From assembly GCA_947469885.1 (NCBI GenBank), contig CANIQT010000007.1:1-64000 (forward strand): a stretch of 64,000 nt of DNA, given 5' to 3'. Within the stretch, counting starts at the first letter, position 1. Each line of letters begins with the position of its first letter. Under the pieces are notes generated by a model that did not search any database, was not told where the DNA came from, and worked only from the letters and a program-made list of their open reading frames with translations. The translations under genes and the position numbers were made by a program. This stretch comes from Bacteroidota bacterium (lineage in GTDB: Bacteria; Bacteroidota; Bacteroidia; 2-12-FULL-35-15). This document shows, piece after piece, positions 2,887 to 50,734 of this stretch.

Positions 2887-3189
2887 ATGCACCCTTCCAT
2901 TGCCAGTAATATAAACGAAATAAAAACTTTATTTAAACAAAATGGAGTTGTATCTGCATATTTGTTTGGTAGTGCAACAGGAACAAACCATTCTGCAAAA
3001 AGTGATTTTGATTTTTTAGTGAAGTTTAATCCTTCTTTAGATTATGAAATGTATGCCAATAATTATTTTAACCTTCTACATGGTTTACAACATATTCTCA
3101 AATCTGAAATAGATATTGTTGCTGAAGAAACTATTACCAATCCTTATTTTGCCCAAACAATAAATGAAAATAAAATTTTACTGTTATGA
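2887..3189 (+). CDS. mntA: MntA-type minimal nucleotidyltransferase, antitoxin of a HepT/MntA pair
   Basis: A 100-residue MNT-family nucleotidyltransferase. The active-site motif is G28-S29 followed by D40-x-D42 (GS-x10-DxD), with the third metal-binding acid at D76 (SEIDIV). In characterised HepT/MntA pairs the antitoxin adds AMP to the tyrosine of the RxxxxHxY motif of the HepT RNase and so silences it. Its TGA overlaps the ATG of the downstream hepT frame by the ATGA arrangement typical of translational coupling. Length and motifs are normal, so this half of the pair looks intact. What makes the locus odd is the partner. Confidence 0.85.
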   Translation: MHPSIASNINEIKTLFKQNGVVSAYLFGSATGTNHSAKSDFDFLVKFNPSLDYEMYANNYFNLLHGLQHILKSEIDIVAEETITNPYFAQTINENKILLL

Positions 3190-3561: not shown

Positions 3562-6500
3562 CTACTTCGCTAGCATAAAAAATCCTTTTTCGCTGTGTTC
3601 TATGTTATGAACATCTGTTGCAGTGATAACATAATAGTAAGTGCCATCCACAGATTTTAGTCCGCTGCCAGTGCGCCCGTCCCAACTACCTGAAAGGTTA
3701 TTCCATTCATAAATTTTGAGGCCTGTGCGGTCAAATATTTCTACATCTATTTGTGCAACTCCTTTGCTAATTATTGTAAAAACATCATTTACTCCATCAC
3801 CGTTTGGTGTAAATACGTTTGGAATAATTAACGTGTAATCATCGTAAACCACAACAGTAACTTCAGAAGTAGAAGGACACATGCCGCTGTTGGATGCAGT
3901 TAATATTACTACATAGGTTCCGGCAGCAGTAAAAATGTGGCTGGTGTCAACACCATTGTAGGTGCTGCCATCTCCAAAGTTCCATTGATAGATATTCGCA
4001 TTGGTGGTAGTGTTTGTGAATTGTATATTCAATGGTACAAAACCAACTGCAGGGTTAGGCGAAGTCGTGAAAGAAGCCGCTGCACCTGTGCCACCAATGG
4101 CAGAAGTGGTGTCGGAAGCACTGCATCCGTAAGTAGAGTTGGTTACTGTAAGTGTATAAACTCCCTGCTGATTTACAACAGGCTGTGTGGTAGTTGCTCC
4201 TGAAACAATGTTTCCGTTGGCGGTAGTCCAGTTGTAAGTTATTCCGCTTCCGCTGTCAGAGCCTGTTCCGTCAAGTGTTATTGTGCCGTTTCCGTTGCAG
4301 GCAATGGTCATCACAGCACCCGCATTGGCAACAGGATTTGGATTTACAGTAATGGTAAAAGTGGATAAAATACCTAAACACCCGTTAGTGGTTGGACTAA
4401 CAGTAATGGTGGCAGTAAGAGGATTGGAGGTAGGATTATTGGTAACAAAGGAAGGAAGGTTTCCAGCTCCATTTGCACCAAGACCTATTGACGGGTCGGA
4501 GTTAGACCATATAAATGTAGCCCCTGCCAAAGGTGAAGTAAAAGTAATTGGAGCAATGGTAGCCCCTTCACACACCGTTTGATTGGCAACCAAATCAACT
4601 GTAGGAGTTGGATATACTGTAATGGTAAACGACATAGGAGTTCCTGTACAACTTCCATTAACAGGAGTTACTGTAATGGTGGCAGTAACGGTGGTGGTGC
4701 CTGTATTAGTTACTGGAAACAAACCAATATTGCCAACACCATTTGCTGCAAGTCCAATAGAGGTAGCGGTGTTTGTCCAGTTAAAGGATGTGCCTGCCAC
4801 AGGACTGGTAAAGTTTACAGGAAGGGAAGAAACACCATTACATAAACTCTGGTTGGTAACAATATCAACCGTAGGACTTGGATTAACAGTAATTGTAAAT
4901 GTAATAGGAGTTCCCGAACAAGTACCAATAACAGGTGTTACGGTGATGGTAGCCGTTATATCCGAAGTTGAGGTGTTGGTTGTATTAAAAGAAGGAATGT
5001 TGCCAATACCGTTTGCAGCAAGTCCTATTGCAGTGTTGCTGTTGGTCCAGTTGAAAATAGTACCGGGCACGCTTCCTGAAAACACTAAAGCAGCAGTTGA
5101 TGAGGCATTACATAAAGTCTGGTCGGTTTGTGCAGTTACATCAGGTGATGGGTTGATGGTAACGGTAGCGGTTGCTGAATTACCGGCACATCCGTTGGTT
5201 GTTCCTGTAACCGTATAACTTGTAGTTACCGCAGGAGAAACAGTTATGGAATCAGTAGTTTCGGTGGTTGACCACAAATAAGAACCTGCACCCGAAGCGG
5301 TAAGAGTAGCCGATTGTCCGCTGCATATGGATGGAGAATTAACAGTAATTACCGGAATGGATGCAACGGAAACCATAATGGTATCAGTACTTAAACATAT
5401 TCCTGCGCCAACAGAATAAGTAAGAACAAAATTTCCTGCACCTGACGCAGTAGGGTCGAATGAATTGCCTGTGACTCCTGTACCAGTCCACACACCGTTT
5501 GCCGGCAAGCCAGATAAGGAAACAACAGCAGCATTTCCACAGACATTGAAACCTGTTCCTGCATCAGCAACAGCAGAAGCCACCACCAAAACCGTCATGG
5601 TATCGGCATTAGAACATCCTGAAATTGCATCCTGATAAGAAAAAGTAAGCACATAATTTCCAACTCCTGGAGGAGTGAAATCGCCAGAAGTGGTTACTCC
5701 ACTGCCAGTCCATGTTCCGCCAGCGGGAGAGAATCCTGTTAAGGTAGTTGCTATTGGTTGGTTACATAATGTTTGTGTTGCTCCTGCATCAACAACAGGC
5801 AGAGAATTTACAGTTACAGTTGAACTGCCAACGCTTGAACATCCCGTTGTTCCGTCTGTTCCTGTTACAGTATAGTTAGTAGTAATCAAAGGGGAAACAT
5901 CAATAGTACTAGTTATTTCGGTGGTTGACCACAAATAAGAAGTACCACCTAATGCAGTGAGTGTAACTGTTGATCCTGCACATACTGCAGGAGAATTGAC
6001 AGCAACTATAGGAGCAGCAACAACCGAAACCATAATGGTATCGGTACTTAAACAATTGCCCGAACCAAAGGAATAAGTCAGAACAAAATTGCCAAGTCCA
6101 GCAATGCTAGGGTCGAAGTCAGTGCCCGAAACCCCTGCACCTGACCATACACCACCTAAAGCGGGTAAACCGGATAATGTGATTGGTGTACCGTTTGCAC
6201 AAGTATTAAATCCTGTACCGGCATCAGCAAGTTGTGAATTGACTACTGTTACTAAAACCGTATCTGAATTGGTACAAGTTGTAAAAGCATCTTGATAAGT
6301 ATAAGTTAGCGTAAACTGACCTGCACCCGGAGGAGTGAAATCACCGGAAGTCGTCACCCCACTGCCTGTCCATGTTCCACCAGCAGGGGAATATCCTGTT
6401 AAGGTAGTTGTAACTGGCACATTGCACAGCACCATACCTGTGCCTGCATTAACCACAGGTAAAGAATTAACATTTACTGTTGAGCTTGCTGTATTGGCAC

Positions 6501-9378
6501 AACCGGTGGAAGTATTGGTTCCGGTTACTGTGTAGGAAGTAGTAACTAAAGGAGAAACATTAATTGAACTTGTTATTGCAGTGGTTGACCATACAAAAGA
6601 ATTACCTCCTGTAGCAGTAAGGGTAGTGCTTTGTCCGGGACAGGTGGTTGGTGAATTAACAGAAATGGTTGGCAGTGAATTAACGGTTACCATTATCGTA
6701 TCGCTTCCTGAACAAGTGCCCTGATTATAAGAATAAGTTAGTATATAGTTTCCAATGCCAGCTACAACAGGGTTGAACGTATTGCCCGCCACACCGGTAC
6801 CCGACCACACACCGCCAGATGGAGCCCCTCCTAGTGAAACAATCGAACTATTGGGACAGGTATGAAAGCCTGCACCTGCATTGACTACTGCATTGTTTGC
6901 AACAGTGACAACCATTGTATCTGAATTGGAACAAGTGGTAATGGAATTGGTGTAAGTATAAGTAAGAACAAAATTACCAGGTGCCGAAGGAGTGAACACT
7001 CCACCTGTGGTTACTCCTGCTCCGGTCCAAGTTCCTCCCGAAGGAGAAAACCCTGTTAATGTAGTTGGAACAGGTACATTACATAAGATAATGCTTGCAC
7101 CAGCATTTACAACAGGTAAAGCATTTACAGTTACTGTTGAAACAGCAGTATTTATACATCCGGTGGCGGTGTTGGTTCCTGTAACAGTATAAGAAGTAGT
7201 AACGGATGGACTAACACTTATTGGATTGGTAATGGCGGTGGTGGACCATAAATACGTATTGGCACCACTTCCGGTAAGAGTTGCAGGTTGTCCGATGCAA
7301 AGGCTAGGTGAATTTACTGTAACAGAAGGTAGAGCATTAACTGTAATATAACTAGTCATAGTAACGGGCGCACCTGTTCCGCCCGGATTGGTGGCAGTAA
7401 GTGTAACGCTGTAAACTCCAGGAGTAGTGTATAATATCTTAGGATTCTGCAAAGTAGATGTGGAAGGCGAACCTCCAGGAAAACTCCACGACCAAGAAGT
7501 TGGATAAAGCGTACTATTATCGTGAAACTTGACCGAATCGCCAGCACAAACAGACGGTGTATTGGTATAGAAAGCGGCTACAGAAGGAGTACATGTTCCC
7601 GGCAAGTTAGCATCCATCCATGTGGTACGTGCCACAATCCAGTCTTTGAGTGCCTGAATTTCTCCAGCAAATGTTGTTGGAATAGGTGTAGGATTGGGCC
7701 AGGTATAAACTCCCAAAATGGGCCAACGGGTAAAATGTCGGACTTGCGATTCAGCTAAAAGTGCAGCTACCGAATCAATGTAATGATTCATGGTGGCAAC
7801 GCTTAACGTAGTTTGGCGTAGCTGATTCCAACGACATCTTAACTCGGTACAATAAGCGGGGTCCTGCAAAAACTTTGCCCACCAAAACGGGTTTTGCAGC
7901 CCATCGCCCGGGCAAACTACATTAAAATTATATTCCCAACCAGTGGATACGCTTCCACTACAATAGTTAGCATTCCACCAGGCAAGGTTGTAGTCCCATG
8001 CCGGACCTGCTTTCAACTTTCCGCCCTTGCTGTTTTTATCTTTATGTAAATAGGAACTTATACGATAACCATCCACATTTTTGCTCAGCTCATCCAAAAT
8101 AAAATAATCTATAAACGAGCCCGTGCTGGCATACTTTCGATAACCAATATTAGGGTCGGCAAAGTTGGGACCATTGAGTGCTGTTTCGAAACTATCTACA
8201 TAGCTTTTAATGTAAGCACTTTGAGCCGGAAGAATATTGAATTCGGAAGGATAATGGTATTGAATAAAAATGGAAGAGCCGGTGGCAGAAGGAACAGCAG
8301 ATGTCCAACCGGCACCACCGTTTCCGGTTGTTTTATCTACTTTGATAATATATCCCCCTGTGAGGGAATCACCTGCTAAATCGTTTGAGTCGAGTTTGGC
8401 AACATCGCAACGCATACTGTCCCGCTTTATTTTTTCCATCACCACATAAATGCCTTGATATTGCCCATCTACCACCAGTTCGCACAATTTGGTTCGCGAA
8501 GCATAATGACCGGTTTTGTTGGCAATTTCGTAACTCAGCAAATTTCGCATACAGGTTTTATCATCGTAAGGGGCATACAAAATCCAATCGGATTGTGCGG
8601 GCATTCCCAAAATCATGGTATCGTGTGGCAAGCCATTAATATCTCTTGTTTCAAAACCATAGGGTTTTTGAGGAAAGGATTGAGAACTGGAACCACGTAA
8701 CTCTATTCCTATTTTATTGTTGTAATTATTAAAAGGGTCGGTAAAGTAGTTTCTTACTCCGGGTCCATTGTAAATAATACCCATTTGAGCAGGCACTTTG
8801 GGCTCGTCAGGTATGGTAACTCCTCCGGTATTGATAACCACAATAGGTAAATTACTACTTGTGAACGTTAACCCACCCGAAGGATGAGAACCAAACGTAA
8901 TGCTCCAATTTTGAACACTTCCAACGTTAGTAGTTACTTGGTCTTTTACTTCCAAGGTCCAAGTTCCATTAGGGTTTTGCCCGTTGTTAAAGTTCACCAA
9001 ATTGTCAACAGGTTTAAAAAAACCTGTAAAAGGAGGAGTTCCGCTATTGATGGAAATGGCAGCCGTATCTGTAAAAGTAGTGTTGGTATAATTGTCGCCT
9101 GTGCCACCAATGAGTGAAGTTAGCACATACAAAGAACCTGTGGGGGAGCGAAGTTTTATTCTTAAATCAGAATCGTTTGGATGAATGATATTGAATTTTA
9201 CTGATTCCAGTCCAAAAGTGGAAGTGTTGATGGCAGTGGGCAAACCACTTACCACAATAGGAAAAATGATATACGTATTATTATCAGCTATGGCACCACC
9301 TACAGCATTTGTAAAAGTTTGAGCATTTACTAAAAGAACGGAAAAAAAGCATAAAATAGAAAGTACTGTTTTCTTCAT
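3562..9378 (-). CDS. Giant secreted CotH-like protein with PKD/Ig repeats and T9SS type B domain
   Basis: 1938 residues. Order: signal peptide (1-19, ending LVNAQ); a P/Homo-B-type beta domain (about 22-165, NGTWTLEVKD); a CotH-kinase-like domain (about 175-600, with ELRGSSSQSFPQKPYG, LYAPYDDKTCMRN, LDELSKNVDGY and AGPAWDYNLAWWN); a PKD domain (about 607-690, TPGVYSVTLTATNPGG); a long run of Ig/PKD-like modules (about 690-1740); a second PKD domain (WNFGDGS); and a C-terminal gliding-motility (CHU_C) type B sorting domain starting at IIPNVFTPNGDGVND. CotH proteins are atypical secreted kinases known from spore coats; substrate here is unknown. The N-terminal 600 residues are closely related to the protein at 9851-11923. 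The repeat region contains DNA repeats of about 660 bp. A TATCTTTA promoter-like element sits at 9415-9408. Confidence 0.87.
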   Translation of the reverse strand: MKKTVLSILCFFSVLLVNAQTFTNAVGGAIADNNTYIIFPIVVSGLPTAINTSTFGLESVKFNIIHPNDSDLRIKLRSPTGSLYVLTSLIGGTGDNYTNTTFTDTAAISINSGTPPFTGFFKPVDNLVNFNNGQNPNGTWTLEVKDQVTTNVGSVQNWSITFGSHPSGGLTFTSSNLPIVVINTGGVTIPDEPKVPAQMGIIYNGPGVRNYFTDPFNNYNNKIGIELRGSSSQSFPQKPYGFETRDINGLPHDTMILGMPAQSDWILYAPYDDKTCMRNLLSYEIANKTGHYASRTKLCELVVDGQYQGIYVVMEKIKRDSMRCDVAKLDSNDLAGDSLTGGYIIKVDKTTGNGGAGWTSAVPSATGSSIFIQYHYPSEFNILPAQSAYIKSYVDSFETALNGPNFADPNIGYRKYASTGSFIDYFILDELSKNVDGYRISSYLHKDKNSKGGKLKAGPAWDYNLAWWNANYCSGSVSTGWEYNFNVVCPGDGLQNPFWWAKFLQDPAYCTELRCRWNQLRQTTLSVATMNHYIDSVAALLAESQVRHFTRWPILGVYTWPNPTPIPTTFAGEIQALKDWIVARTTWMDANLPGTCTPSVAAFYTNTPSVCAGDSVKFHDNSTLYPTSWSWSFPGGSPSTSTLQNPKILYTTPGVYSVTLTATNPGGTGAPVTMTSYITVNALPSVTVNSPSLCIGQPATLTGSGANTYLWSTTAITNPISVSPSVTTSYTVTGTNTATGCINTAVSTVTVNALPVVNAGASIILCNVPVPTTLTGFSPSGGTWTGAGVTTGGVFTPSAPGNFVLTYTYTNSITTCSNSDTMVVTVANNAVVNAGAGFHTCPNSSIVSLGGAPSGGVWSGTGVAGNTFNPVVAGIGNYILTYSYNQGTCSGSDTIMVTVNSLPTISVNSPTTCPGQSTTLTATGGNSFVWSTTAITSSINVSPLVTTSYTVTGTNTSTGCANTASSTVNVNSLPVVNAGTGMVLCNVPVTTTLTGYSPAGGTWTGSGVTTSGDFTPPGAGQFTLTYTYQDAFTTCTNSDTVLVTVVNSQLADAGTGFNTCANGTPITLSGLPALGGVWSGAGVSGTDFDPSIAGLGNFVLTYSFGSGNCLSTDTIMVSVVAAPIVAVNSPAVCAGSTVTLTALGGTSYLWSTTEITSTIDVSPLITTNYTVTGTDGTTGCSSVGSSTVTVNSLPVVDAGATQTLCNQPIATTLTGFSPAGGTWTGSGVTTSGDFTPPGVGNYVLTFSYQDAISGCSNADTMTVLVVASAVADAGTGFNVCGNAAVVSLSGLPANGVWTGTGVTGNSFDPTASGAGNFVLTYSVGAGICLSTDTIMVSVASIPVITVNSPSICSGQSATLTASGAGSYLWSTTETTDSITVSPAVTTSYTVTGTTNGCAGNSATATVTINPSPDVTAQTDQTLCNASSTAALVFSGSVPGTIFNWTNSNTAIGLAANGIGNIPSFNTTNTSTSDITATITVTPVIGTCSGTPITFTITVNPSPTVDIVTNQSLCNGVSSLPVNFTSPVAGTSFNWTNTATSIGLAANGVGNIGLFPVTNTGTTTVTATITVTPVNGSCTGTPMSFTITVYPTPTVDLVANQTVCEGATIAPITFTSPLAGATFIWSNSDPSIGLGANGAGNLPSFVTNNPTSNPLTATITVSPTTNGCLGILSTFTITVNPNPVANAGAVMTIACNGNGTITLDGTGSDSGSGITYNWTTANGNIVSGATTTQPVVNQQGVYTLTVTNSTYGCSASDTTSAIGGTGAAASFTTSPNPAVGFVPLNIQFTNTTTNANIYQWNFGDGSTYNGVDTSHIFTAAGTYVVILTASNSGMCPSTSEVTVVVYDDYTLIIPNVFTPNGDGVNDVFTIISKGVAQIDVEIFDRTGLKIYEWNNLSGSWDGRTGSGLKSVDGTYYYVITATDVHNIEHSEKGFFMLAK

Positions 9379-9495
9379 TTGATAAGGAATTATTAATTTT
9401 TAGGTTGTAAAGATATAATAATAAAGTGAATATACCAATAAAATCTGACGAACTTATACAGAATGTGGTTGAAAACATATAGAAAAAAGAGGACT

Positions 9496-9788
9496 ATTTC
9501 GGAAGGGGTAACCCAATTTCGGACAGAGTGTTAACAATTTCGGAAAGAGTGTTAAGAATTTCCGAAAGAGTGTTAACTATTACGGAAAGAGTGTTAACTA
9601 TTTCCGGCAGAGTGTTAACTATTCCAGACAGAGTGTTAACTATTTCCGGCAGAGTGTTAACTATTACGGACAGAGTGTTAAGAATTTCCGAAAGAGTGTT
9701 AACTATTTCGGAAAGAGTGTTAACTATTCCAGACAAAGTGTTAAGAATTTCCGAAAGAGTGTTAACTATTTCCGAAATTCTTACCCCT
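9496..9788. repeat. Tandem array 2: 14 units of 21 bp bounded by a 9-bp inverted repeat
   Basis: Units start at 9496 (20 bp), then 9516, 9537 and every 21 bp to 9768. The core is GAAAGAGTGTTAACT. The first and last units carry a perfect inverted pair, AAGGGGTAA (9503-9511) and TTACCCCTT (9781-9789), absent from the inner units. Because 21 is a multiple of three and the unit lacks stops, both strands are open across it (heptads such as VLTISER and IVNTLSE). This looks like a by-product: substitutions fall at all codon positions. The array lies 117 bp upstream of the giant CotH gene and downstream of its paralogue. Confidence 0.93.
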
Positions 9789-9850
9789 TTAACATTTTCT
9801 GTTTAGTTATCAGCAAGTTGTATTTTTAAACACCAAAAGCTTGCCGTTTT

Positions 9851-11923
9851 TTATTCCGTTTTAGTGAGTTTTTTAACAATTGTGCCCGATGTTGTATTTA
9901 TTTTTAAGAAATAAATACCCGGTGTTACTTCATCTCCCAACATCAATTCTAAATTATTTTCTCCCTCTCTAAATTCTTTTTGGTCTATAATCGTAATCGT
10001 TTTTCCTAACACATCGGTGATTTCTATTTTTAATTGCTCATGGTTGGGCAAATAAAAATTCAAATGAAAATTAGAAGTAAATGGATTGGGGTAGATATTA
10101 ATTGAACTTGCAGAAAGTGTGTTTTCTGTAATCGCAGTATTACAATTTCCGGGCATATTGGCATCCATCCAGGTAATTCGGTTGTAAATCCAGGTTTTCA
10201 TTGCTGAAATTTCGCCTGCATAGCTGGTCGGGATGGGACTTGGATTGGGCCAAGTGTAAGTACCAATGATGGGCCATACTTGAAAATGCCGTTGCTGAGA
10301 TTCGTCCAGCACCAATGCAATAGAATCAATGTAATTATTTAAACGAGTAATGCTCAATACGGATTGACGCAACTCCAGCCAGCGGCATTTTAATTCATAA
10401 GTGTAGGTTTGGTCGTGCAGCAATTTTTCCCACCAAAACGTGCTTTGCCATCCACTGCTGCAAATATTATTTTGTTCGTAAATCCATCCGGTATCTAAAC
10501 TGGCATTGCAATAATCAGCATTCCAAAAGGCAAGGTTATAATCCCAGGCAGGTCCGGCTTTTAGTTTGCCTCCTTTGCTGTTTTTATCTTTATGCAAAAA
10601 AGTACTCAATCTGTAGCCATCCACATTTTTGCTCAATTCGGTTAAAATAAAATAATCAATAAACGAACCCGTGCTCATGTATTTTCGGTAGCCCAACAAA
10701 GGGTCGGCAAAATTGGGTCCGTTCAATGCCACTTCAAACGAATCAACAAAATGTTGAATGTATGTTTTTTGTATGGGAGGCATGGTGGTAAAGTTAGGAT
10801 ACACATACACAAAATTAATGGGCTGTGCAGTATTCGATAAAAAGTTGGATGTCCAGTAACTACCCGCACCATCGTCTCTGTCTATTTTTATAATATACCC
10901 CCCCGTTAAATCATCACCGCTGATGGAAGTGGGCAACAACCTGGCAACCGATACTCTGTTGCTATCACGTTTCACTTTTTCCATCATCACATATATTCCT
11001 TTGTATTGGTCGTCAATTATCAATTCGCAAAAACGTGTTCGCGAAGCGTAATGTCCTGTTTGATTAGCAATATCGTAAGCAAGCACATTTCGCATACAGG
11101 TTTTATCATCATACGGAGCGTACAAAATCCAATCGCTTTGGGCAGGCATTCCCATCACAATGGTATCCTTTATAACAGCGTTTATATCCAATGTGGTGAG
11201 TCCGTACGATTTTTGCGGAAACCCAAGCGAACTGCTACCGCGAAGCTGAATGGCTATCTTATTGTTATAGGTATTAAAGGTATCGTTTACATAATTTCTA
11301 ATTCCTGCACCATTGTCAATTATGCCCATGTGAGCTAATATGTTTGGATAATCAACAATGCTTTGCCCATTTGTATTGACTTTGACAATAGGCAGATTGC
11401 TGGAAGTAAACAAAAAGGGATGAGCAGGCGCATTGCCAAAAGTGATGCTCCAATTGTTTACCGTTCCTGTATCAATAGCCCATTGGTCTTGCACCAGGAG
11501 TGTCCAGGTCCCGTTCCCAACTTGTCCGTTGTTGAATGCGCCAATAAATTCCTGCGGGCGATAAGTGCCTGTAAACGGTGCGCTACCAATTACCACAGAA
11601 GTGGCTGCACTTTGGTTTAAACAAGTGGCCGTGTAATTATGTCCACCTCCACCGTTGCCTTCCGACAAAGCAGCAATGGTTCCATCGGGAGCTTGTAGCC
11701 AAATGTGTAAATCGGCAGTGTAAGTATGAGTAATATCGAAACAAACAGTTTCAATTCCAAAAATGGTATCAATAGTTGTTGGAGTTAACCCCGAAACAAC
11801 AATGGGGATAGACATAACAGGTCCTGCATCGGGAATAGAAGTGACAACAGTACTTGTAAATGTTTGTGCAGAAATAATTAATGCGGTAAGTATATTTAAT
11901 GTTAACAGTAGTGATTTTTTCAT
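9851..11923 (-). CDS. Secreted CotH-like protein with T9SS type A signal
   Basis: 690 residues: signal peptide (1-19, ending IISAQ), a P/Homo-B-like domain (about 22-165, NGTWTLLVQD), a CotH-like domain (about 175-600, with QLRGSSSLGFPQKSYG, LYAPYDDKTCMRNVLAY, LSKNVDGYR and AGPAWDYNLAFWN), then a T9SS type A domain (IYPNPFTSNF, EITDVLGKTI, GIYFLKI). It matches the first 600 residues of the neighbouring 1938-residue protein almost block for block, so the two arose by tandem duplication, but this copy has no PKD/Ig modules and the other sorting-domain class. It is transcribed toward array 2 and its paralogue. The substrate of the kinase-like domain is unknown. Confidence 0.86.
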   Translation of the reverse strand: MKKSLLLTLNILTALIISAQTFTSTVVTSIPDAGPVMSIPIVVSGLTPTTIDTIFGIETVCFDITHTYTADLHIWLQAPDGTIAALSEGNGGGGHNYTATCLNQSAATSVVIGSAPFTGTYRPQEFIGAFNNGQVGNGTWTLLVQDQWAIDTGTVNNWSITFGNAPAHPFLFTSSNLPIVKVNTNGQSIVDYPNILAHMGIIDNGAGIRNYVNDTFNTYNNKIAIQLRGSSSLGFPQKSYGLTTLDINAVIKDTIVMGMPAQSDWILYAPYDDKTCMRNVLAYDIANQTGHYASRTRFCELIIDDQYKGIYVMMEKVKRDSNRVSVARLLPTSISGDDLTGGYIIKIDRDDGAGSYWTSNFLSNTAQPINFVYVYPNFTTMPPIQKTYIQHFVDSFEVALNGPNFADPLLGYRKYMSTGSFIDYFILTELSKNVDGYRLSTFLHKDKNSKGGKLKAGPAWDYNLAFWNADYCNASLDTGWIYEQNNICSSGWQSTFWWEKLLHDQTYTYELKCRWLELRQSVLSITRLNNYIDSIALVLDESQQRHFQVWPIIGTYTWPNPSPIPTSYAGEISAMKTWIYNRITWMDANMPGNCNTAITENTLSASSINIYPNPFTSNFHLNFYLPNHEQLKIEITDVLGKTITIIDQKEFREGENNLELMLGDEVTPGIYFLKINTTSGTIVKKLTKTE

Positions 11924-12026
11924 AAAATAAATTTTGATAAAAGTAAGATAAATTGTTGATAAGCGGATTTATTTTGCGTTTTGAAAATGCAACAACTATT
12001 TTATTTATTTTTGACAATTAAAATTA

Positions 12027-12034
12027 TATTTTTG
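12027..12034 (+). promoter_or_regulatory. TAnnTTTG promoter element of the NYN cassette
   Basis: TATTTTTG ends 5 bases before the first ATG (12040) of the cassette. Transcription would start at or next to that ATG, so the first gene is either leaderless or starts at the second ATG (12049). Confidence 0.5.
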
Positions 12035-12039
12035 TTGAA

Positions 12040-13209
12040 ATGAATTTGATGAACATAAGTGTAAGCACATCGAACGTATTTGGTGCTTTTGATGGAACAG
12101 CCATCCGGTTGGGGTTGTTGATAAGCGATGTAACTTTTACAGCCGGAGATTTGCACAACATGATAAGGGCTGCCGGAAGAATGACGGATGAAAAAGAAAG
12201 CATGAAAATGAAAATGGCAGTAATTGCCGCTCATGCCGAAAGCAAGCCGGAAGATTTGGGAATAACCGCTCAGGACTTTGAACACATCCGGTTGAATTAT
12301 ACGTTTTTGAAAAACATAAAGTATAAAACTTCGGAACAGTTGCGGCATTATAAAACGATTGAGAAAATGATAAGCGATGCTTACAATTCGCTTAATCAGG
12401 CGTACTCGGCAGGGTTGGACACTAGCGGAATGACACAGTTGGGGAAATTTGCACACAAAGAATTAGAATTTAATGCCGTTCATACCGACCGACCTGAGTT
12501 TAGAAATGAAATTGATGACGGGTATTTGAGAATGAGTGAAGTGTTGCTCGACCGATATGACAAGGCAACACCAAACGATATTTATTTGGTGACAGGACAT
12601 TTTGGGGAATACTTAAAACTTGCGCAAGTGGAGATGGGAGAGTTGGGCAACAGCACCGACAAACATTTGAAAGTGTTGTGTGCCAAAGACGTTTTGACGC
12701 TTCCAAATTTGATACAGCTTACTGCAAACGAAATAGAATTGGTGAGGGAACATTTGATGAGCACCAATCAAACCTTTAGAACCAACATAACCAACTGGAA
12801 CAATGATTTGATTACAACTGAATTTGCTCGAGACAATTTTAAAATGATAAACAAGCGTTACATTTCAGACATTGAGCCTTATGTAAAAATGTTGCAAACC
12901 GAAATAAACAAAAACGAAAGGCTAAAACTATTGTATGCTAACACGCATAAAAATCATGTGTTTGAAGTGAGTTTGTATGTTACCAGCATTGACGTGTATT
13001 GGAGCTATTTATTTTACAACAATTCGATAGGTGAAGAAACCATGGATGCGTTGAAAAATTATCCTAATTATGAAAAACTAAAAAATTATTCGTGCCTGAT
13101 TATAGAAGGCGCTTTGATTACACTAAACCAAGACCTTTTGGAAGACACCGCCCAAAAGAAAAATAACGAACCAATAGTATTAACAAAACGTAAAACCTTA
13201 GATTTTTAA
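12040..13209 (+). CDS. Cassette gene 1: unrecognised protein, paralogue of the gene at 14656
   Basis: 389 residues, soluble, no signal peptide or membrane segment. I do not recognise the family. It aligns end to end with the protein at 14656-15831. Shared blocks are AIRLGLL, a GDLH motif, YKYLKNIKYK-like, IEKMISDAYNS, LMSEVLLDRYD-like, DIYLVTGHF, LPNLIQLTANEIELVRE, ETFRTN-like, and a C-terminal tail TKRKTLDF. Predicted character is mainly helical. It is followed after 20 bp by the NYN ribonuclease gene and then by its paralogue, all on the plus strand, so the three are probably one transcription unit. The ATG at 12049 is an alternative start. Confidence 0.8.
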   Translation: MNLMNISVSTSNVFGAFDGTAIRLGLLISDVTFTAGDLHNMIRAAGRMTDEKESMKMKMAVIAAHAESKPEDLGITAQDFEHIRLNYTFLKNIKYKTSEQLRHYKTIEKMISDAYNSLNQAYSAGLDTSGMTQLGKFAHKELEFNAVHTDRPEFRNEIDDGYLRMSEVLLDRYDKATPNDIYLVTGHFGEYLKLAQVEMGELGNSTDKHLKVLCAKDVLTLPNLIQLTANEIELVREHLMSTNQTFRTNITNWNNDLITTEFARDNFKMINKRYISDIEPYVKMLQTEINKNERLKLLYANTHKNHVFEVSLYVTSIDVYWSYLFYNNSIGEETMDALKNYPNYEKLKNYSCLIIEGALITLNQDLLEDTAQKKNNEPIVLTKRKTLDF

Positions 13210-13229
13210 ACCAATTAAACAAAAACAAA

Positions 13230-14615
13230 ATGAAACCAATTCCAAAATTACACGAGTATTACCGTATCAAAATGGTGCAGTCAGAATTTATTATTGAATT
13301 TGAAACCTTGAAAGAAATGGCAAGGTATGCCGAAAAAAACAGCATTAAAAGTGTATTTATTTTGACCGAAGAAGATGGCAAAACCGAAAGCTTTGCTTTT
13401 TCGAACAAAGGCGGATTGCTGAAACACACCACTAATGGCTACCAAACACTGGAAGACTTTAGAAATGCCGACCTCAACTGTTTTCCGGATGCAACGGTAT
13501 ATTATGCTGCTATGCAATTAGGGTTTAATAAATATGACGAATATAAAATGAGCTCCGAAACAGGAATAACAGATGCGAAGGAATACGAAGAAATAAAAAA
13601 AGCAGGTTATATACAGGCATACAGTCAGTTTGATGAATTCAGGAAATCGAATGCGGAAAGTTTGCAGTTTGCAGAAATAAAAAACCCGTACGACCTAAAA
13701 GAATGGGTAGGCAAAAAGAAGTTTCAAAACATAGCGGAGTTTATGCAAGCTTTTCAAGGCGGATTTGCCGACCCTTTAAATTATCGAGCGGCTATTGAAA
13801 AAGGGTATAAAACGGCTGCCGACTCTCAAAAAGGAACTGCTAAAGGATTTTTGATGGGTGAAAATTATTATTACGCCCAGCAACGAGGCATCGAAACATT
13901 TGAAGAAATGGTTTTGTATAACGATTTGCAACAGTTGCCATTACCCGATCTTACTTTCGACCAGCGGATAATTTGTGTGTTGTTGAGCAAAGCCACGGAC
14001 GGTAAAAAAACATCAGTTAACAAATTGTATGAAGGACTGGAAGAAACAAAAAAAATATACGTAAAAAAAGATGGCACCATACCACAGTGGTTCACCATGG
14101 CTATACAATCGGTGAAAGACCTTGTTGCATTTTTGTTGCAAAACGAGCTCATAAAACATTATGGACACTATGACGCTGATGGCGAATTTTTTCAAAAGAA
14201 AAAAATGCAGGAGCGCACAGTAATATTGGATGGTAGCAATGTGGCGTATGGTGTAACAGGCGACAAAAACCGCAAACCTACCATGAAAAATATTTTGATT
14301 ATGGTTCAGTTTCTCAAAGAAAAAGGATTTTTGGATATTAGCGTATATACCGATGCTTCACTGAAACATAGAATGGCAGATATGTCGTTGTTGCCTGAAG
14401 TTGAAAAGCTGTGTAAGTACAGATACACCCCTGCCGAAAAACCTGCCGACCTTTTCTTGCTTTCGCATGTAAAACAAAATCATTGTTTACTTGTGAGCAA
14501 CGACATGTTTCGCGATTGGAAACTGGCTGACCCTTGGATTGCTGTAAACATTGATTATTACCTCCTCAAGTTTATGATTGAAGACGACAAAGTAAACATG
14601 CCAGACCTTGTATAA
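13230..14615 (+). CDS. Cassette gene 2: Regnase/Zc3h12a-like NYN ribonuclease with N-terminal repeats
   Basis: 461 residues. The C-terminal part (about 328-440) is a NYN/PIN-like RNase of the Zc3h12a (Regnase-1) type: ILDGSNVAYG, SVYTDAS, KPADLFLL, CLLVSNDMFRDW. D334, N337, D407, D425 and D429 fit the spacing of the human MCPIP1 catalytic set (D141, N144, D226, D244, D248); the position of D225 is alanine. A single-strand RNA endonuclease activity follows from family knowledge. The N-terminal 90-240 region has loose repeats of about 20 residues with aromatic-Gly endings (YYAAMQLGF, YEEIKKAGY, YRAAIEKGY, YYYAQQRGI). It sits between two paralogues of an unknown family, 20 bp after the first and 40 bp before the second. 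Target RNA is unknown. Confidence 0.8.
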   Translation: MKPIPKLHEYYRIKMVQSEFIIEFETLKEMARYAEKNSIKSVFILTEEDGKTESFAFSNKGGLLKHTTNGYQTLEDFRNADLNCFPDATVYYAAMQLGFNKYDEYKMSSETGITDAKEYEEIKKAGYIQAYSQFDEFRKSNAESLQFAEIKNPYDLKEWVGKKKFQNIAEFMQAFQGGFADPLNYRAAIEKGYKTAADSQKGTAKGFLMGENYYYAQQRGIETFEEMVLYNDLQQLPLPDLTFDQRIICVLLSKATDGKKTSVNKLYEGLEETKKIYVKKDGTIPQWFTMAIQSVKDLVAFLLQNELIKHYGHYDADGEFFQKKKMQERTVILDGSNVAYGVTGDKNRKPTMKNILIMVQFLKEKGFLDISVYTDASLKHRMADMSLLPEVEKLCKYRYTPAEKPADLFLLSHVKQNHCLLVSNDMFRDWKLADPWIAVNIDYYLLKFMIEDDKVNMPDLV

Positions 14616-14655
14616 CTTATAGTTCTTTTTTTTATTTTAATCTAACGCTGAGCCC

Positions 14656-15831
14656 ATGTCGCTGCCAATGAATACTGCAAATATAAGTTTGAGTAACGGA
14701 GAAGTGTTTTCGGACTATGATATTATGGCTATTCGTTTGGGCTTGTTGGTAGGTGATACCACTTATTCGATAGGCGATTTGCACATCGGCATTATGGTCG
14801 AAAATTCGACTAACGAAAAACGAACTCACTACGAAAAACTAGATGCCATCTATAGTTACATTGTAAATTTTCCGGAACAAGCGGGTATTGAAATGGAAAA
14901 TTTTGAAAACACTGCATCTACCTATAAATATTTAAAAAACATAAAATACAAATCGCCTAATCAAATTAAAGAGATGAAGGGGATAGAAAAATTAATTGAT
15001 GGTGCTTATAATTCGCGAAACGAATTTTATTCGAACAGATACCAAAATGCAGGTATGCCGCAACTAAAAAAATTTGTTGACCGAAGTTTAAAATTGCTGG
15101 CAACACATCCTACCTCTGCCGAAGTAAGAATAAACGAGCGGTATTACCTGATGAGTGAAATTGTGACCGACCGATTTGATACAACTACCGGTGACGATAT
15201 TTTTTTGGTGACCGGAAATTTTACAGAGTATCTCCAAGATAAAAAAATAATAACCTCAGCATTTGGACCCAATGCGGATGTGAATGCCCAACTTCTTTGC
15301 AAAAAAAATATGTTTGTGTTGCCCAACTTAAATTTGTTGACCCAAAACGAATTGGAAATGGTGAGAGAAGAGCTGACAAGTAAAAACGAAACCTTTAGAA
15401 CCAACATGGCAAACTGGAATAAAGCACTTATTAACATTCCGTTTGCACACCCGAATTTTGAAATGATTTCGCAAACATATATAAACGAAATAGAACCATT
15501 TGCAAAATTGCTAAAAACAGAAATGGATAACAACGAGCGGCTAAAAGTGCAGCAAGCACATTCGGGGACGGTACATACTTTTGCCGTTCATTTGTATGTT
15601 ACCAGTGTCGGATTTTATTGGGACTATCTACACCACATCAATAACGTTGGGGAAGATACCATGAAGGTATTACAACAAAAACCAGATTATGAAGCATGGC
15701 GAAAATCTTCGTGTATTATTATTGCAGGTTGCCTGTTGGACCATACCGGAGCAATAGTGGAGAATGATAAAAGAAAACGAGCGTTGAATAATGTTCCGGA
15801 ATTAACCAAACGAAAAACATTGGATATTTAG
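14656..15831 (+). CDS. Cassette gene 3: unrecognised protein, paralogue of the gene at 12040
   Basis: 391 residues, soluble, no signal peptide. It matches the first cassette protein over its full length (IMAIRLGLLVGDTTY, GDLHIGI, YLKNIKYKS, GIEKLIDGAYNSRNEF, YYLMSEIVTDRFD, DDIFLVTGNFTEYL, LPNLNLLTQNELEMVRE, ETFRTNMANWN, HLYVTSVGFYWDYL) and ends TKRKTLDI. The two paralogues have clearly diverged, so both have been kept under selection rather than being a recent copy. An adaptor, sensor or antidote role around the NYN ribonuclease is an inference from position only. Start at the ATG 14656; a second ATG at 14668 is possible. Confidence 0.8.
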   Translation: MSLPMNTANISLSNGEVFSDYDIMAIRLGLLVGDTTYSIGDLHIGIMVENSTNEKRTHYEKLDAIYSYIVNFPEQAGIEMENFENTASTYKYLKNIKYKSPNQIKEMKGIEKLIDGAYNSRNEFYSNRYQNAGMPQLKKFVDRSLKLLATHPTSAEVRINERYYLMSEIVTDRFDTTTGDDIFLVTGNFTEYLQDKKIITSAFGPNADVNAQLLCKKNMFVLPNLNLLTQNELEMVREELTSKNETFRTNMANWNKALINIPFAHPNFEMISQTYINEIEPFAKLLKTEMDNNERLKVQQAHSGTVHTFAVHLYVTSVGFYWDYLHHINNVGEDTMKVLQQKPDYEAWRKSSCIIIAGCLLDHTGAIVENDKRKRALNNVPELTKRKTLDI

Positions 15832-15929
15832 TTGGAGTGATTGGAAGGGAATTTTGTTTTGCGGGTTTGTTGGCGAAAAGAGCAACAAACAAAAAAATCC
15901 TGCTCTTTACAAAGCAGAATTCGTGTACG

Positions 15930-16117
15930 TCATAAATTCCCCTCTAGAGAGAAAATAACATCTCCTGCTCTGCAAATGACAAGCTTTGGTCCGCAATTAA
16001 TACTTTACGCTCCACTATTGGCACTTCATGCTACGAAAACGACATAACACCTCCGTAACTGACATTTCACATTCCTCAATTGACATTGAACGCTCCGCAA
16101 TTGACGTTAGTGTAATA
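15930..16117. repeat. Tandem array 3: about 9 units of 21 bp
   Basis: Units can be followed at 15930, 15951, 15972, 15993, 16014, 16035, 16055, 16076 and 16097, one step being 20 bp and the rest 21. The core, clearest in the last two units, is AATTGACATTGAACGCTCC; the first two units are heavily decayed. No spacers. It fills most of the 427-bp gap between the NYN cassette and sixA and ends 141 bp before the sixA start. Sequence is unrelated to arrays 1, 2 and 4. Confidence 0.8.
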
Positions 16118-16238
16118 TGTGGTGTGATTTTTTTCCAGACCACTACCCCAGAGTCTTCTGTTTTTTAATTGTTTTATTTTATTGATTCGAATCAATAAAA
16201 ATAAAACAGAGATTTGATGTGGAATCTATATTAAGACG

Positions 16239-16246
16239 TATTTTTG
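16239..16246 (+). promoter_or_regulatory. TAnnTTTG promoter element of sixA
   Basis: TATTTTTG, 12 bp upstream of the sixA ATG. Confidence 0.5.
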
Positions 16247-16258
16247 CAGTAAAAAAAA

Positions 16259-16750
16259 ATGAAAACCCTTTACCTTATACGTCATGCCAAATCGGATTGG
16301 GCTAATATAACCCTTGCCGATATTGACCGTCCGCTCAACACAAGAGGATATACCGATGCTCATAAAATGAGCGCGATGATGAAACAGAAAAACATACAGC
16401 CGGATGCCATTGTTACCAGTCCGGCTGTGCGAGCCATTACCACCGCGTTGATATTTGCCCGCAATTGTAATTTTAATGCTTCACGAATTCATATTCAACC
16501 TATGTTGTATCATTCCAACACAGAAAACTATATTGATATTGTTGCCGAAACGGATGATAGAATTAACACTTTGTTTTTGTTTGCACACAATCCGGTGATA
16601 AGCGATTGTGCAAATAAGTTGTTAAGAATGCAACGCGAAGAAATGCCTACCTGCGGAATAACAGGAGTATCAAGCAACTGCACCAACTGGGACGAATTTG
16701 CAAATTCGGATTGTAAATTAATTTTGTTCGATTTCCCAAAAAATCAGTAA
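16259..16750 (+). CDS. sixA: Phosphohistidine phosphatase SixA
   Basis: 163 residues of the histidine phosphatase (phosphoglycerate mutase-like) superfamily in its minimal SixA form. The catalytic loop is LIRHAKSDW with the phospho-accepting histidine at residue 9; R20-P21-L22 follows, and FLFAHNPVIS carries the second catalytic histidine. SixA dephosphorylates phosphohistidine on signalling or phosphotransfer proteins in the cytoplasm. Here it heads a group with ppk1 and ppx, a pairing common in Bacteroidota. Its partner phosphoprotein cannot be deduced. It has its own TAnnTTTG element and a 21-bp repeat array upstream. Confidence 0.85.
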   Translation: MKTLYLIRHAKSDWANITLADIDRPLNTRGYTDAHKMSAMMKQKNIQPDAIVTSPAVRAITTALIFARNCNFNASRIHIQPMLYHSNTENYIDIVAETDDRINTLFLFAHNPVISDCANKLLRMQREEMPTCGITGVSSNCTNWDEFANSDCKLILFDFPKNQ

Positions 16751-16813
16751 GCCCTAAACCCTGTTTCTGACTTTAATCATTGTGTTAAGTTTCCGTTATC
16801 ATTTTAATTCAGA

Positions 16814-16821
16814 TACCTTTG
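16814..16821 (+). promoter_or_regulatory. TAnnTTTG promoter element upstream of the Lys-rich protein
   Basis: TACCTTTG, 42 bp before the ATG at 16864. Confidence 0.5.
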
Positions 16822-16863
16822 TATTAAAATATTCCTCACTTTTAAATTCTAAAACTTTAAGCT

Positions 16864-17169
16864 ATGAATAAAAAACAACAACGAAAAGAACTGGAAGCAG
16901 CCTTGTTTAAAACCATTGAAGATTTGCTTATCAGCATTAATCCTGAATCAGCAAGCCAGATAAGCGATATTACTTACGGGGCATCTAGAATACTTGCCAA
17001 AAAGTTTTATAAATCAGTGAAACATAAGGAAGAAAAAAAAGCACAGCCTGCTAAGCAAAAACCGGAAGTAAAAAAAGTAGTTGCACCAAACAAAAAGGCA
17101 GCAAAAAAGGTTGCGCCACCTGCTGCTAAAAAACCTGCAAAACCTGCAAAGGCAAAATCGAAAAAATAA
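16864..17169 (+). CDS. Small protein with histone-H1-like Lys/Ala/Pro tail
   Basis: 101 residues. The first 55 or so form a helical head (ELEAALFKTIEDLLISI). The remainder is a low-complexity basic tail made almost only of Lys, Ala and Pro with some Val (KKAAKKVAPPAAKKPAKPA), like eukaryotic H1 tails and bacterial histone-like proteins. No enzymatic motif. The head has no family I recognise. It lies directly upstream of ppk1, which has its own promoter element in the 34-bp gap. A DNA- or polyphosphate-binding role is plausible from the charge and the neighbourhood, but is inference. Confidence 0.75.
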   Translation: MNKKQQRKELEAALFKTIEDLLISINPESASQISDITYGASRILAKKFYKSVKHKEEKKAQPAKQKPEVKKVVAPNKKAAKKVAPPAAKKPAKPAKAKSKK

Positions 17170-17174
17170 TTTAA

Positions 17175-17182
17175 TACTTTTG
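17175..17182 (+). promoter_or_regulatory. TAnnTTTG promoter element of ppk1
   Basis: TACTTTTG lies 21 bp before the ppk1 ATG, within the short gap after the Lys-rich gene. Confidence 0.5.
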
Positions 17183-17203
17183 TTGCGCTAGTGTTAGTGA
17201 TGT

Positions 17204-19264
17204 ATGAAGAAGCAAAAAAGTATTTTAATTAATCGTGAGTTAAGCTGGTTGTCGTTTAACGACCGTGTGTTGCAGGAAGCACAAGATGCAAGAGTGCCCC
17301 TGATTGAACGGCTGAAATTTCTAGGAATATTTTCGAACAATAGGGACGAGTTTTTTCGAGTGCGTGTGGCTACTCTTACCCGTGTGGTAAAACATCAGAA
17401 AAAAGCAGAAGAGCTGATGGGCGAAAATCCGGAGAGGCTGTTGAGTGTCATCCAAAAAACAGTGATTGAGCAGCAAATAAAGTTTGAACACATTTATCAG
17501 ACCTTGCGCAAAGAACTGGAACAAAACAATATTTTTATTGTCAACGAAAAACAATTGACCCGCGAACAAGGAGTGTTTACAAAAACATTTTTCAGAGATA
17601 AAGTGTTGCCTTCCATTTTTCCCATCATGTTGGACACTACTTCTAAGTTCCCTTATCTGAAAGACAAATCGGGGTATCTGATAATTAAGTTGGGAAGAAA
17701 TGAAAAAGCAAAAAAAAGTAAGTATGCGCTCATAGAAGTGCCTACTGATGTGCTTTCGCGCTTTGTGGTGTTGCCCAAAGACAAAGAAAAAAGTTATATT
17801 GTTTTGCTGGATGATGTAATAAGATATTGTTTGGAAGATGTGTTCACCAATTTTGAACACGATTACATACAAGCCTATAACATAAAGCTGACAAGGGATG
17901 CAGAGATAGACATGGACAATGATTTATCGAAATCGTTTGTAGAAAAAATAACAAAAGGACTGAAAGACCGGAAAAAGGGTCAACCGGTGAGATTGGTGTA
18001 CGACAGCGAAATTGCTCCTGATGTACTTCAGTATATTATGAAGAAAATAAAACTCGGCAAAGAAGAAAATCCGATTCCAGGAGGCAGGTATCACAACTTT
18101 AAAGACTTTATTAATTTTCCCAATGTGGGCGCACACGAACTGAGTTACAAAAAAACTCCACCACTCAAACACCCTGATTTTAAAGACCAAACTAGCCTTC
18201 TGAAAATTATTAAAAAGAAAGATGTGCTGTTAACATATCCCTACCAGTCGTTCGACCATCTGATTGATTTGCTTCGCGAGGCTTCTATCGACCCGAAAGT
18301 ACTGAGTATAAAAATTACCTTGTACCGGGTGGCAGAAAATTCGAACATTGTGAAAGCATTGATTAATGCATTGAAGAACGGGAAAACGGTGTTAGCTGTA
18401 ATCGAACTTCAGGCACGGTTTGACGAAGAAGCCAATATTTATTGGGCAAACAAGCTAACAGAAGAAGGAGCAAAAGTGATTTACGGAGTGCCCAATTTAA
18501 AAGTGCATACCAAATTATTTTTGATAACCAGGAAAGAAGGAGGAACAATAAATCACTATGCCCATGTGGGGACAGGAAACTTTAATGGTGTTACTGCCCG
18601 TATCTATACCGACCACAGTTTGCTTACCTGCGACAAAAGAATAACCGATGAAGCAGATAAATTATTTCAATTTTATACCGATAATCTAAAGATTGGAACG
18701 TATAAGCATTTGCTTGTTTCTCCCTTCACCATGCGCAAACAAGTGTATCAGCTTATCAACAAAGAAATTCAGAATGCACGAAAAAATATTCCAGCTTCTA
18801 TCACTTTAAAATTAAATAACTTGGTGGATATTGAAGTGATAAAAAAACTATACGAAGCAAGTATGGAAGGGGTGAAAATAAAATTAATAATCCGTGGTAT
18901 TTGCTCGCTGGTGGCTGGTGTTAAAGGATTAAGTGATAATATTGAAGCCATAAGTATAGTGGACAAATTTTTGGAACACAGCCGTGTGTTCATATTTTAT
19001 AATGGGGGAGATGAAAAATACTTTTTATCTTCGGCAGATTGGATGGCTCGTAATTTCGACCATCGGTCGGAAGTAGCAGTGCCGGTGTATGATAAAAATA
19101 TTCAGCAACAATTGAAAAAAATAATAGATACCCAATTGGCAGATAATACCAAAGCAAGAGTGTTGGGAAGTTTGCAAAACAATGAATACCGAAAAACAGG
19201 AAACCCAAATAAGATGCGGGCGCAAGAAGAAATTTATAATTCATTTAAACTAAAAAAGAATTAA
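17204..19264 (+). CDS. ppk1: Polyphosphate kinase 1
   Basis: 686 residues, normal length for PPK1. The N-terminal domain begins INRELSWLSFNDRVLQEA. The head domain follows, and then two phospholipase-D-like C-terminal domains with the catalytic histidine segments LKVHTKLFLI and ADWMARNFDHRSE. The enzyme polymerises the gamma-phosphate of ATP into inorganic polyphosphate, reversibly, at the inner face of the membrane. The next gene, ppx, is 6 bp downstream and encodes the degrading enzyme, so synthesis and hydrolysis are co-transcribed. Confidence 0.95.
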   Translation: MKKQKSILINRELSWLSFNDRVLQEAQDARVPLIERLKFLGIFSNNRDEFFRVRVATLTRVVKHQKKAEELMGENPERLLSVIQKTVIEQQIKFEHIYQTLRKELEQNNIFIVNEKQLTREQGVFTKTFFRDKVLPSIFPIMLDTTSKFPYLKDKSGYLIIKLGRNEKAKKSKYALIEVPTDVLSRFVVLPKDKEKSYIVLLDDVIRYCLEDVFTNFEHDYIQAYNIKLTRDAEIDMDNDLSKSFVEKITKGLKDRKKGQPVRLVYDSEIAPDVLQYIMKKIKLGKEENPIPGGRYHNFKDFINFPNVGAHELSYKKTPPLKHPDFKDQTSLLKIIKKKDVLLTYPYQSFDHLIDLLREASIDPKVLSIKITLYRVAENSNIVKALINALKNGKTVLAVIELQARFDEEANIYWANKLTEEGAKVIYGVPNLKVHTKLFLITRKEGGTINHYAHVGTGNFNGVTARIYTDHSLLTCDKRITDEADKLFQFYTDNLKIGTYKHLLVSPFTMRKQVYQLINKEIQNARKNIPASITLKLNNLVDIEVIKKLYEASMEGVKIKLIIRGICSLVAGVKGLSDNIEAISIVDKFLEHSRVFIFYNGGDEKYFLSSADWMARNFDHRSEVAVPVYDKNIQQQLKKIIDTQLADNTKARVLGSLQNNEYRKTGNPNKMRAQEEIYNSFKLKKN

Positions 19265-19270
19265 CCGCAT

Positions 19271-20173
19271 TTGAAATTTGCAGCAATTGATATAGGCTCC
19301 AATGCAGTGAGGTTGCTATTTTGCAACGTGTATGACGAGGATGGAGTGATTACCTATAAAAAAGCAGAACTCATCCGTGTGCCCATCCGATTGGGAGAAG
19401 ATTCGTTTCTCAACGGAAAAATTTCATCTCAAAAAGAAGAAAAATTAATTACTGCTATGAAAGCTTTTAAACATCTGATAGATGTTTATGATGCTGTGGA
19501 TTACCGTGCCTGCGCTACTTCTGCCATGCGTGATGCCGAAAACCGTTACGACATTGTGGACAGGGTGAGAAAAGAAGCAGGTATAAAAATTGAAATAATA
19601 GATGGAAAAACCGAAGCGGATATTATTTTTTCGAACCACATTGAAGAGCATCTGGATAAAAGCAATAACTACCTGTACATTGATATTGGCGGGGGAAGTA
19701 CAGAGATTACCCTGTTCTCTAAAAACAAAGCAATCGTTTCGCAATCGTTTAATATCGGTACCATCCGTATGTTGCACAATCAGATTGATAAAGAGTTTTG
19801 GGGCTATTTTAAAAACTGGATAGTGGAAATTACAAAAGGATACAAGCCACTGATGGCAATTGGTTCGGGAGGCAACATCAATAAACTATTTAAAATGTCG
19901 GGCAGAAGATTGGATAAACCGATTGCAACAGCCAAACTTAAAAATCTCTACGAAGTGCTCGAATCTTATACTTACGAAGAGCGAGTGCATACACTTGGCT
20001 TGAACCCTGACCGGGCAGATGTTATAATTCCTGCTTCCAAAATATTACTCACTGTTTTGAAAAAAGCAGAAATAGAAAAAATTATTATTCCCCAAATTGG
20101 TTTGTCGGATGGCATCGTTCATCAGTTGTACGAAAAACACAAGGAAAATAAAAATGCAGTGAAAGTAGATTAG
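19271..20173 (+). CDS. ppx: Exopolyphosphatase Ppx/GppA family
   Basis: 300 residues of the sugar kinase/Hsp70/actin fold. The phosphate-1 motif AAIDIGSNAVRLL is at the N-terminus and the phosphate-2 motif YIDIGGGSTEITLF in the middle. The glycine-rich AIGSGGNINKLF follows. It has the short form without the C-terminal HD-like domain found in E. coli Ppx (about 510 residues). Family members release phosphate from polyphosphate or pppGpp. It starts at a TTG 6 bp after the ppk1 stop, so it is almost certainly translated from the same message. Confidence 0.88.
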   Translation: MKFAAIDIGSNAVRLLFCNVYDEDGVITYKKAELIRVPIRLGEDSFLNGKISSQKEEKLITAMKAFKHLIDVYDAVDYRACATSAMRDAENRYDIVDRVRKEAGIKIEIIDGKTEADIIFSNHIEEHLDKSNNYLYIDIGGGSTEITLFSKNKAIVSQSFNIGTIRMLHNQIDKEFWGYFKNWIVEITKGYKPLMAIGSGGNINKLFKMSGRRLDKPIATAKLKNLYEVLESYTYEERVHTLGLNPDRADVIIPASKILLTVLKKAEIEKIIIPQIGLSDGIVHQLYEKHKENKNAVKVD

Positions 20174-50608: not shown

Positions 50609-50734
50609 AAAGTTCTTTCTATTTTTATCAAAGTTCAAAACTAATTAACCATTGTTCGGAACATTTTCATCATTGTTCGGGACTTTTCGTCAATTGTTCC
50701 TGAACTTTGAGCGAAAAGTCCTGAACTTTAATGA
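50609..50734. repeat. Tandem array 5: 6 units of 21 bp
   Basis: Units start at 50609, 50630, 50651, 50672, 50693 and 50714, all 21 bp. The clearest three share ATTGTTC and a following AAC or GAC core. Flanks at 50588 and 50735 look like further decayed units. It lies between the hypothetical gene ending at 50574 and the M28 peptidase, ending 94 bp before the ATG. Confidence 0.75.

Follow-up and report, generated by a model that had tools for sequence, protein, structure and literature searches.

Organization of the locus

The window analyzed here is a stretch of 64,000 nucleotides at the start of contig CANIQT010000007.1 of a Bacteroidota bacterium (assembly GCA_947469885.1), and it carries three open reading frames (ORFs) that follow one another on the + strand with gaps of 20 bp (A1/NYN) and 40 bp (NYN/A2). 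The middle gene, NYN, encodes a predicted ribonuclease (RNase), and the outer two, A1 and A2, encode members of one protein family, here referred to as A (Table 1). An initial reading of the DNA, hereafter the original prediction, had described three closely spaced co-directional genes whose outer products are homologous from end to end, and both the ORF coordinates and the full-length alignment of A1 with A2 (45% identity, E=1e-114) agree with this; each outer protein ends in TKRKTLD plus one residue. Sequence comparisons support the view that these genes belong to an undescribed conserved module, composed of a Regnase-like RNase and a partner family. The true start of A2 may be the ATG at 14668, in line with the starts of its relatives in the alignment. 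An Rfam scan of window positions 9000-20000 gave no match, and promoter and terminator counts were near chance level.

Table 1. Genes and protein regions of the A1-NYN-A2 locus, in window coordinates.
Feature	Position	Strand	Description
A1	12040..13209	+	389 amino acids (aa), unnamed family; mixed alpha/beta predicted fold; disordered C-terminus from residue 366
A1 tail TKRKTLDF	13183..13206	+	Kept on clade I A proteins (five genomes) and on small unrelated proteins of those genomes
NYN	13230..14615	+	461-aa multidomain predicted RNase; full-length homologues in 12 other genomes; AlphaFold model
NYN N-terminal beta domain	13230..13439	+	Secondary structure of the model; KGGL motif from the alignment
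NYN short-helix run	13449..13931	+	Helical repeats in the model, with ~14-residue spacing over much of the region
NYN winged-helix-like region	13956..14198	+	Residues 243-323; helix/strand order in the model, putative fold assignment
NYN Zc3h12a-like nuclease domain	14211..14606	+	Residues 328-459; D334, N337, D407, D425, D429
A2	14656..15831	+	391 aa, A1 paralogue by ORF, full-length identity and tree
A2 tail TKRKTLDI	15805..15828	+	C-terminal, same pattern as the A1 tail

When A1, NYN and A2 were searched against Pfam, NCBIfam, PHROGs and PADLOC, the nuclease domain of NYN alone was recognized. This domain matches the Pfam family RNase_Zc3h12a (PF11977) (E=1.2e-16; score 61.2 bits, cut-off 23), and all 13 NYN homologues match the same profile. 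The complete Zc3h12a-type site that had been read in the middle protein is borne out by the alignment, in which D334, N337, D407 and D425 are invariant across the 13 homologues and position 429 carries either D or E. The domain also matches human ZC3H12A, ZC3H12B and ZC3H12C, both by PDB sequence and by predicted fold, with KHNYN matched as well, and its metal site lines up with that of ZC3H12B in a sequence alignment. Profile, site and fold all place NYN in the Zc3h12a-like NYN family; the site and the fold are strongly supported by sequence and model, and RNase activity is predicted. Since the AlphaFold model combines a pLDDT of 88.7 with a pTM of 0.56, its domains can be taken as sound, but their packing cannot. 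From the N-terminus the order is a small beta domain, short helices, the winged-helix-like region and the nuclease. The N-terminal region is conserved, although outside the nuclease Pfam gave no match in the 13 members.

The A proteins belong to a family without a name, as the original prediction had proposed: no Pfam, NCBIfam or PADLOC family was matched, and neither sequence nor fold pointed to a known enzyme of another kind. Weak matches to bCoV_NS6 and FapA lay under the family cut-offs and were discarded, and comparison with PDB sequences returned coiled-coil-like noise only. The A1 model is confident (pLDDT 85.8, pTM 0.79) and shows a mixed alpha/beta protein that is well folded except at its C-terminus, and yet it found no fold match at E<0.001 among PDB and BFVD (viral) structures; judged against PDB and viral models only, A is likely a new fold. 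Family members are ~350-390 aa long, have no recognized DNA-binding domain, and share few conserved positions in the alignment, among them K94, E108, L134, P222, L227 and R236.

Conservation of the A-NYN pairing

The order to which the window belongs was sampled by 36 genomes, all of one genus, and A was found in 6 of them, each time beside NYN. A class-wide draw of 396 genomes was also surveyed, and a separate draw from the phylum was searched for NYN. Across the class, A occurs in 11 genomes, full-length NYN in 10 (after removal of G367) and both in 10 (Fisher p 5e-19, kinship uncorrected), so that A is not the family widespread without an NYN gene that would have counted against the original prediction. 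The single genome with A and no NYN, G212, holds a fragment of A. Outside the window's class, G619 from the phylum draw has A upstream of NYN with 14 bp between them. In all, 14 full-length NYN genes were collected from 13 Bacteroidota genomes. Of the 14, 13 have between one and four A neighbours, and in every one of the 13 at least one A gene precedes NYN on the same strand. A stands beside NYN in 11 genomes besides the window's own, and publicly named relatives are Bacteroidetes metagenome-assembled genomes such as RH-23may17-974 and Umea3_bin-1094. The A and NYN genes are linked and co-inherited, forming a conserved module that is not private to one genome.

The neighbourhood survey also qualifies the layout. 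An RNase between two paralogues, as originally described, is what the window has, but A on both sides of NYN was seen there only; elsewhere NYN usually follows one to four A genes. A single copy is present in G034, G020 (C304), G021, G019, G119, G087, G619 and G050 (where A has an internal stop), two in G023 and G092 (one of them broken in G092), three in G153 and four in G020 (C300). The window's own genome has no further full-length A beyond A1 and A2, and broken copies were found in G050, G092, G212 and the own genome.

Two of these are orphan N-terminal fragments that appear to be decayed copies: a third A on contig C1 of the own genome (L061:6338-6679) and the one of G212 (L060:7262-7744). 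Two matches were set aside during the survey. The G367 'NYN' match was spurious, lying within an ORF that reads as a flavoprotein, and G476 is not a full module member, the common part being the nuclease domain only.

The trees of A and of NYN resolve the same two main clades and have subgroups in common (the window with G034, G020 and G021; G153 with G087; G092 with G281), and G020 holds one module from each clade. A was less conserved than NYN in 55 of 55 locus pairs, with mean identities of 20% and 36%. Between G020 and G021, the ratio of non-synonymous to synonymous substitution rates (dN/dS) was ~0.16-0.39 for A, depending on the method, and 0.08-0.14 for NYN; judged by these ratios, both are under purifying selection where it is measurable. 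In the clade II part of the tree the NYN-proximal A proteins of G023 and G020 cluster together and the distal copies do likewise, which implies that the paralogues are old and have been kept apart. Old, separate paralogues would fit better with partners of distinct recognition roles than with redundant antidotes.

The C-terminal tail and its companion proteins

The common TKRKTLD end of the outer proteins matters more than the original prediction held. It recurs on six companion proteins, and no other part of the module is as novel or as poorly explained as this shared tail. It takes the form [KR]RKT(L/I)... and is found in clade I, one of the two clades. The tails of A1 and A2 (Table 1) have counterparts in QKRKTLDL (G034), TRKTLDID (G119) and HKRKTLDLD (G087), and the three A copies of G153 end in HRRKTISLD, HRRKTISLD and YRRKTISLD. 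A variable linker precedes each of these tails and is disordered in the A1 model. The tail is missing from A of G020 (C304) and G021, both in clade I, and from clade II A. In the alignment, the KGGL motif of the NYN beta domain was found in the clade whose A proteins can bear the tail.

To survey the tail, 42 genomes were searched for [KR]RKT(L/F)(D/E)-hydrophobic-stop, with the reversed pattern as control; this pattern does not fit the longer G087 and G153 tails and misses TAG stops, and companions there could be missed. Eight matches were seen against about one expected under a mononucleotide model, all in the own genome (G000), G034 and G119, each of which has a tailed A, and the reversed control gave one match in total. 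Every instance of KRKTLD found in G000 is a protein C-terminus. A broader version of the pattern was too noisy, its matches equalling those of the control. 'KRKTLD' occurs in no paper that a literature search of open-access papers returned.

Companions on small proteins are present in three of the five genomes with a tailed A. In the own genome they are a 100-aa protein (L064:1219-1521, C2) and two 55-aa proteins (L067:1354-1521 on C8 and L068:1354-1521 on C18), in G034 two 55-aa proteins ending in QKRKTLEL (L126, L129), and in G119 a 252-aa protein ending in TKRKTLEV (L131:766-1524). The six fall into three unrelated families, and one common family for the tail-bearing genes is ruled out. The two 55-aa genes of G000 look real, their dN/dS being near 0.1-0.2. 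Each of the six companions lies far from the operon, upstream of a protein of ~200-220 aa; one of these neighbours weakly matches fn3, and by eye the remaining ones look similar to it at their C-terminal ends.

A proposed regulated-RNase module

We propose that A and NYN form a two-component regulated-RNase module, with NYN as effector, A as a restraint that also senses or as an adaptor for targeting, phage as the likely trigger and the tail as a docking element, and we judge the chances of this whole picture to be about evenly balanced. NYN would act as a metal-dependent RNA nuclease that is harmful if unrestrained, and the A proteins would bind it, either to restrain it and sense or to target it. 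A copies may have multiplied and diverged because each recognizes a different trigger or substrate. Upon the trigger, most likely phage infection, NYN would cut RNA, leading to growth stop or to the loss of invader transcripts. In the tailed clade, the KRKTLD-like peptide of A may dock on a receptor, possibly the N-terminal region of NYN, and the tail-bearing small proteins would use the same site to compete, recruit or signal; the tail might equally well belong to a third partner. In its working the module would most resemble a regulated RNase equipped with several sensors or adaptors, and its purpose is probably defence or toxin-antitoxin (TA)-like.

A role in conflict fits with the sparse distribution, with the broken A copies and with the presence, close to four of the 14 NYN loci, of TA, restriction-modification (RM) or STAND genes: AbiEii and HipA in G050, a zeta toxin and type I RM in G092, MazF in G619 and NACHT in G019. 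As a bare count, this last sign is suggestive only. Several findings weigh on the other side. The remaining 10 loci have no such gene nearby; in G281 NYN stands without an adjacent A, and two A genes lie on two other contigs; no copy of NYN was found in the phages, plasmids or viral contigs searched, nor of A in the plasmids or viral contigs searched; and PADLOC-DB 2.0.0 gave no match for A1, NYN, A2 or any of the 13 NYN homologues. In addition, because clade II and two clade I genomes are tail-free, the core mechanism must be able to run without the tail.

Two simpler accounts of the pairing would do without phage sensing or without conflict. If A were only the antidote to a toxic NYN, with neither sensing nor targeting, the module would be a plain TA pair, for which the two-gene operon that joins a PIN-like RNase to a variable partner, the upstream position of the partner and the further TA genes near some loci all speak. 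This we consider improbable, as A is large, mostly well folded and free of any recognized DNA-binding domain, the effector is multidomain, and up to four ancient and distinct A copies accompany one nuclease; moreover, in G050 NYN is intact although the A gene next to it is broken, a state that is incompatible with a strict antidote and argues against A as indispensable. Alternatively, NYN might mature or degrade cellular RNAs, with A proteins as substrate adaptors, comparable to the CRISPR-associated NYN that trims crRNA. Several adaptors would account for the A copies, and the conserved basic positions of A (K94 and neighbours) also speak for this account, but a module that is rare (10 of 396 genomes), patchy within one genus (6 of 36) and equipped with a rapidly diverging A does not resemble housekeeping RNA processing or mRNA decay, and we regard this account as no likelier than the TA pair.

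The tail raises a separate question, as it might be a general C-terminal signal, such as a degron, chaperone or localization motif, unrelated to NYN. The distance of the tailed small proteins from the operon, and their shared position upstream of ~200-220-aa proteins with one weakly fn3-like family, lend this idea some weight, and we doubt it without dismissing it. Against it, the exact pattern was absent from the 37 genomes without a tailed A, and all three genomes with companions belong to the five that have a tailed A (p=0.0009, kinship ignored). G012, in which A was not found, has a 55-aa homologue whose end is degenerate (TRRKVRYLF), and within one genome A and the 55-aa proteins agree in the residue ahead of KRK (Q in G034, T/S in G000). 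At its most ambitious, the regulated-RNase proposal would describe a new immune or RNA-control system, in which A governs a Regnase-like nuclease and a C-terminal code peptide, [KR]RKT(L/I)[DES]-hydrophobic, carried by A proteins as well as by scattered small proteins, docks different inputs on that nuclease, with a logic comparable to the docking tail of bacterial SSB; in this extended form we think it unlikely, if slightly less so than the two simpler accounts of the pairing.

Comparison with known systems

NYN nucleases have immune roles in animals, and if the bacterial module serves defence or growth control, a parallel may be drawn in which a Regnase-like nuclease acts as a bacterial conflict effector. 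The nuclease resembles Regnase/MCPIP (ZC3H12A, B, C) and KHNYN of animals in sequence, fold and catalytic residues. Unlike these, NYN has neither a CCCH zinc finger nor a KH domain; it places a beta domain, helical repeats and a winged-helix-like region ahead of the nuclease, and has A as operon partner. The shared tail could in turn reveal a small protein network wired to one nuclease.

A CRISPR-associated NYN ribonuclease has been described from a type III CRISPR system of Bacteroides fragilis (PMC11346440), which is likewise an NYN nuclease of Bacteroidota with RNA as presumed substrate; the recurrent partner here is A and not Cmr/Cas10, and no Cas gene was recognized in the reading-frame lists at the module loci, where not every neighbour was profile-scanned. 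Bacterial LK-nucleases (DUF88) with OST-HTH, reported to have no conserved gene neighbourhood (PMC2848206), also combine a PIN/NYN-superfamily RNase with a winged-helix-like, possibly RNA-binding region. Here, however, the order of helical region and nuclease is reversed and A is a conserved neighbour, and the OST-HTH and DUF88 Pfam models matched none of the 13 NYN homologues at E up to 0.01. Type II TA systems with PIN-fold toxins (VapBC) likewise encode a PIN-like RNase together with a variable partner in one operon, but are small two-gene operons with a small DNA-binding antitoxin, whereas A is large and folded and occurs in one to four copies beside a multidomain effector. The nuclease domain also shows weak profile and fold similarity to PRORP (protein-only RNase P), with the window's NYN below the Pfam cut-off and a global TM-score of only about 0.24.

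We found no described counterpart of a Zc3h12a-type NYN RNase paired with the A family, either in PADLOC or in the open-access literature, and the module fits neither a catalogued defence system nor the classical picture of type II TA. Together with the linkage at 13 of 14 NYN genes, this upholds the original prediction of a candidate undescribed system.

Genomic surroundings

The original prediction placed the module next to a TA pair, which is overstated: the nearest TA-like gene, a nucleotidyltransferase at 2887-3189, is ~9 kb upstream, two large genes for secreted proteins lie in between, and it offers a weak TA context at this distance. These two genes stand in tandem (3562-9378 and 9851-11923) and the N-terminal parts of their products look homologous; the product of the one nearer the module has CotH kinase and P-proprotein domains and a type IX secretion system (T9SS) sorting tail. 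Downstream of the module are a histidine phosphatase gene, ppk and a ppx-like gene.

Beyond the window, an RHS-repeat protein with a C-terminal AAA ATPase adjoins two clade II A-NYN loci, intact at L019:4236-6710 and split at L018:2-1797; it is a possible third component there, and was rejected as a generally recurring third gene because it stands beside these two loci only. One A-NYN locus also has a small SpoIIAA-like protein as neighbour (L021:6635-7024, DUF7793), with relatives near two tailed-protein loci (L109:9469-9861 and L134:5776-6219). Intergenic minisatellites with a period of ~21 bp are present in the window at 485-742, 9516-9777, 16046-16105 and 50650-50708, as well as in L067, L068, L126, L129 and L127, and similar arrays occur in related genomes in the interval that separates the 55-aa gene from the FN3-like gene.

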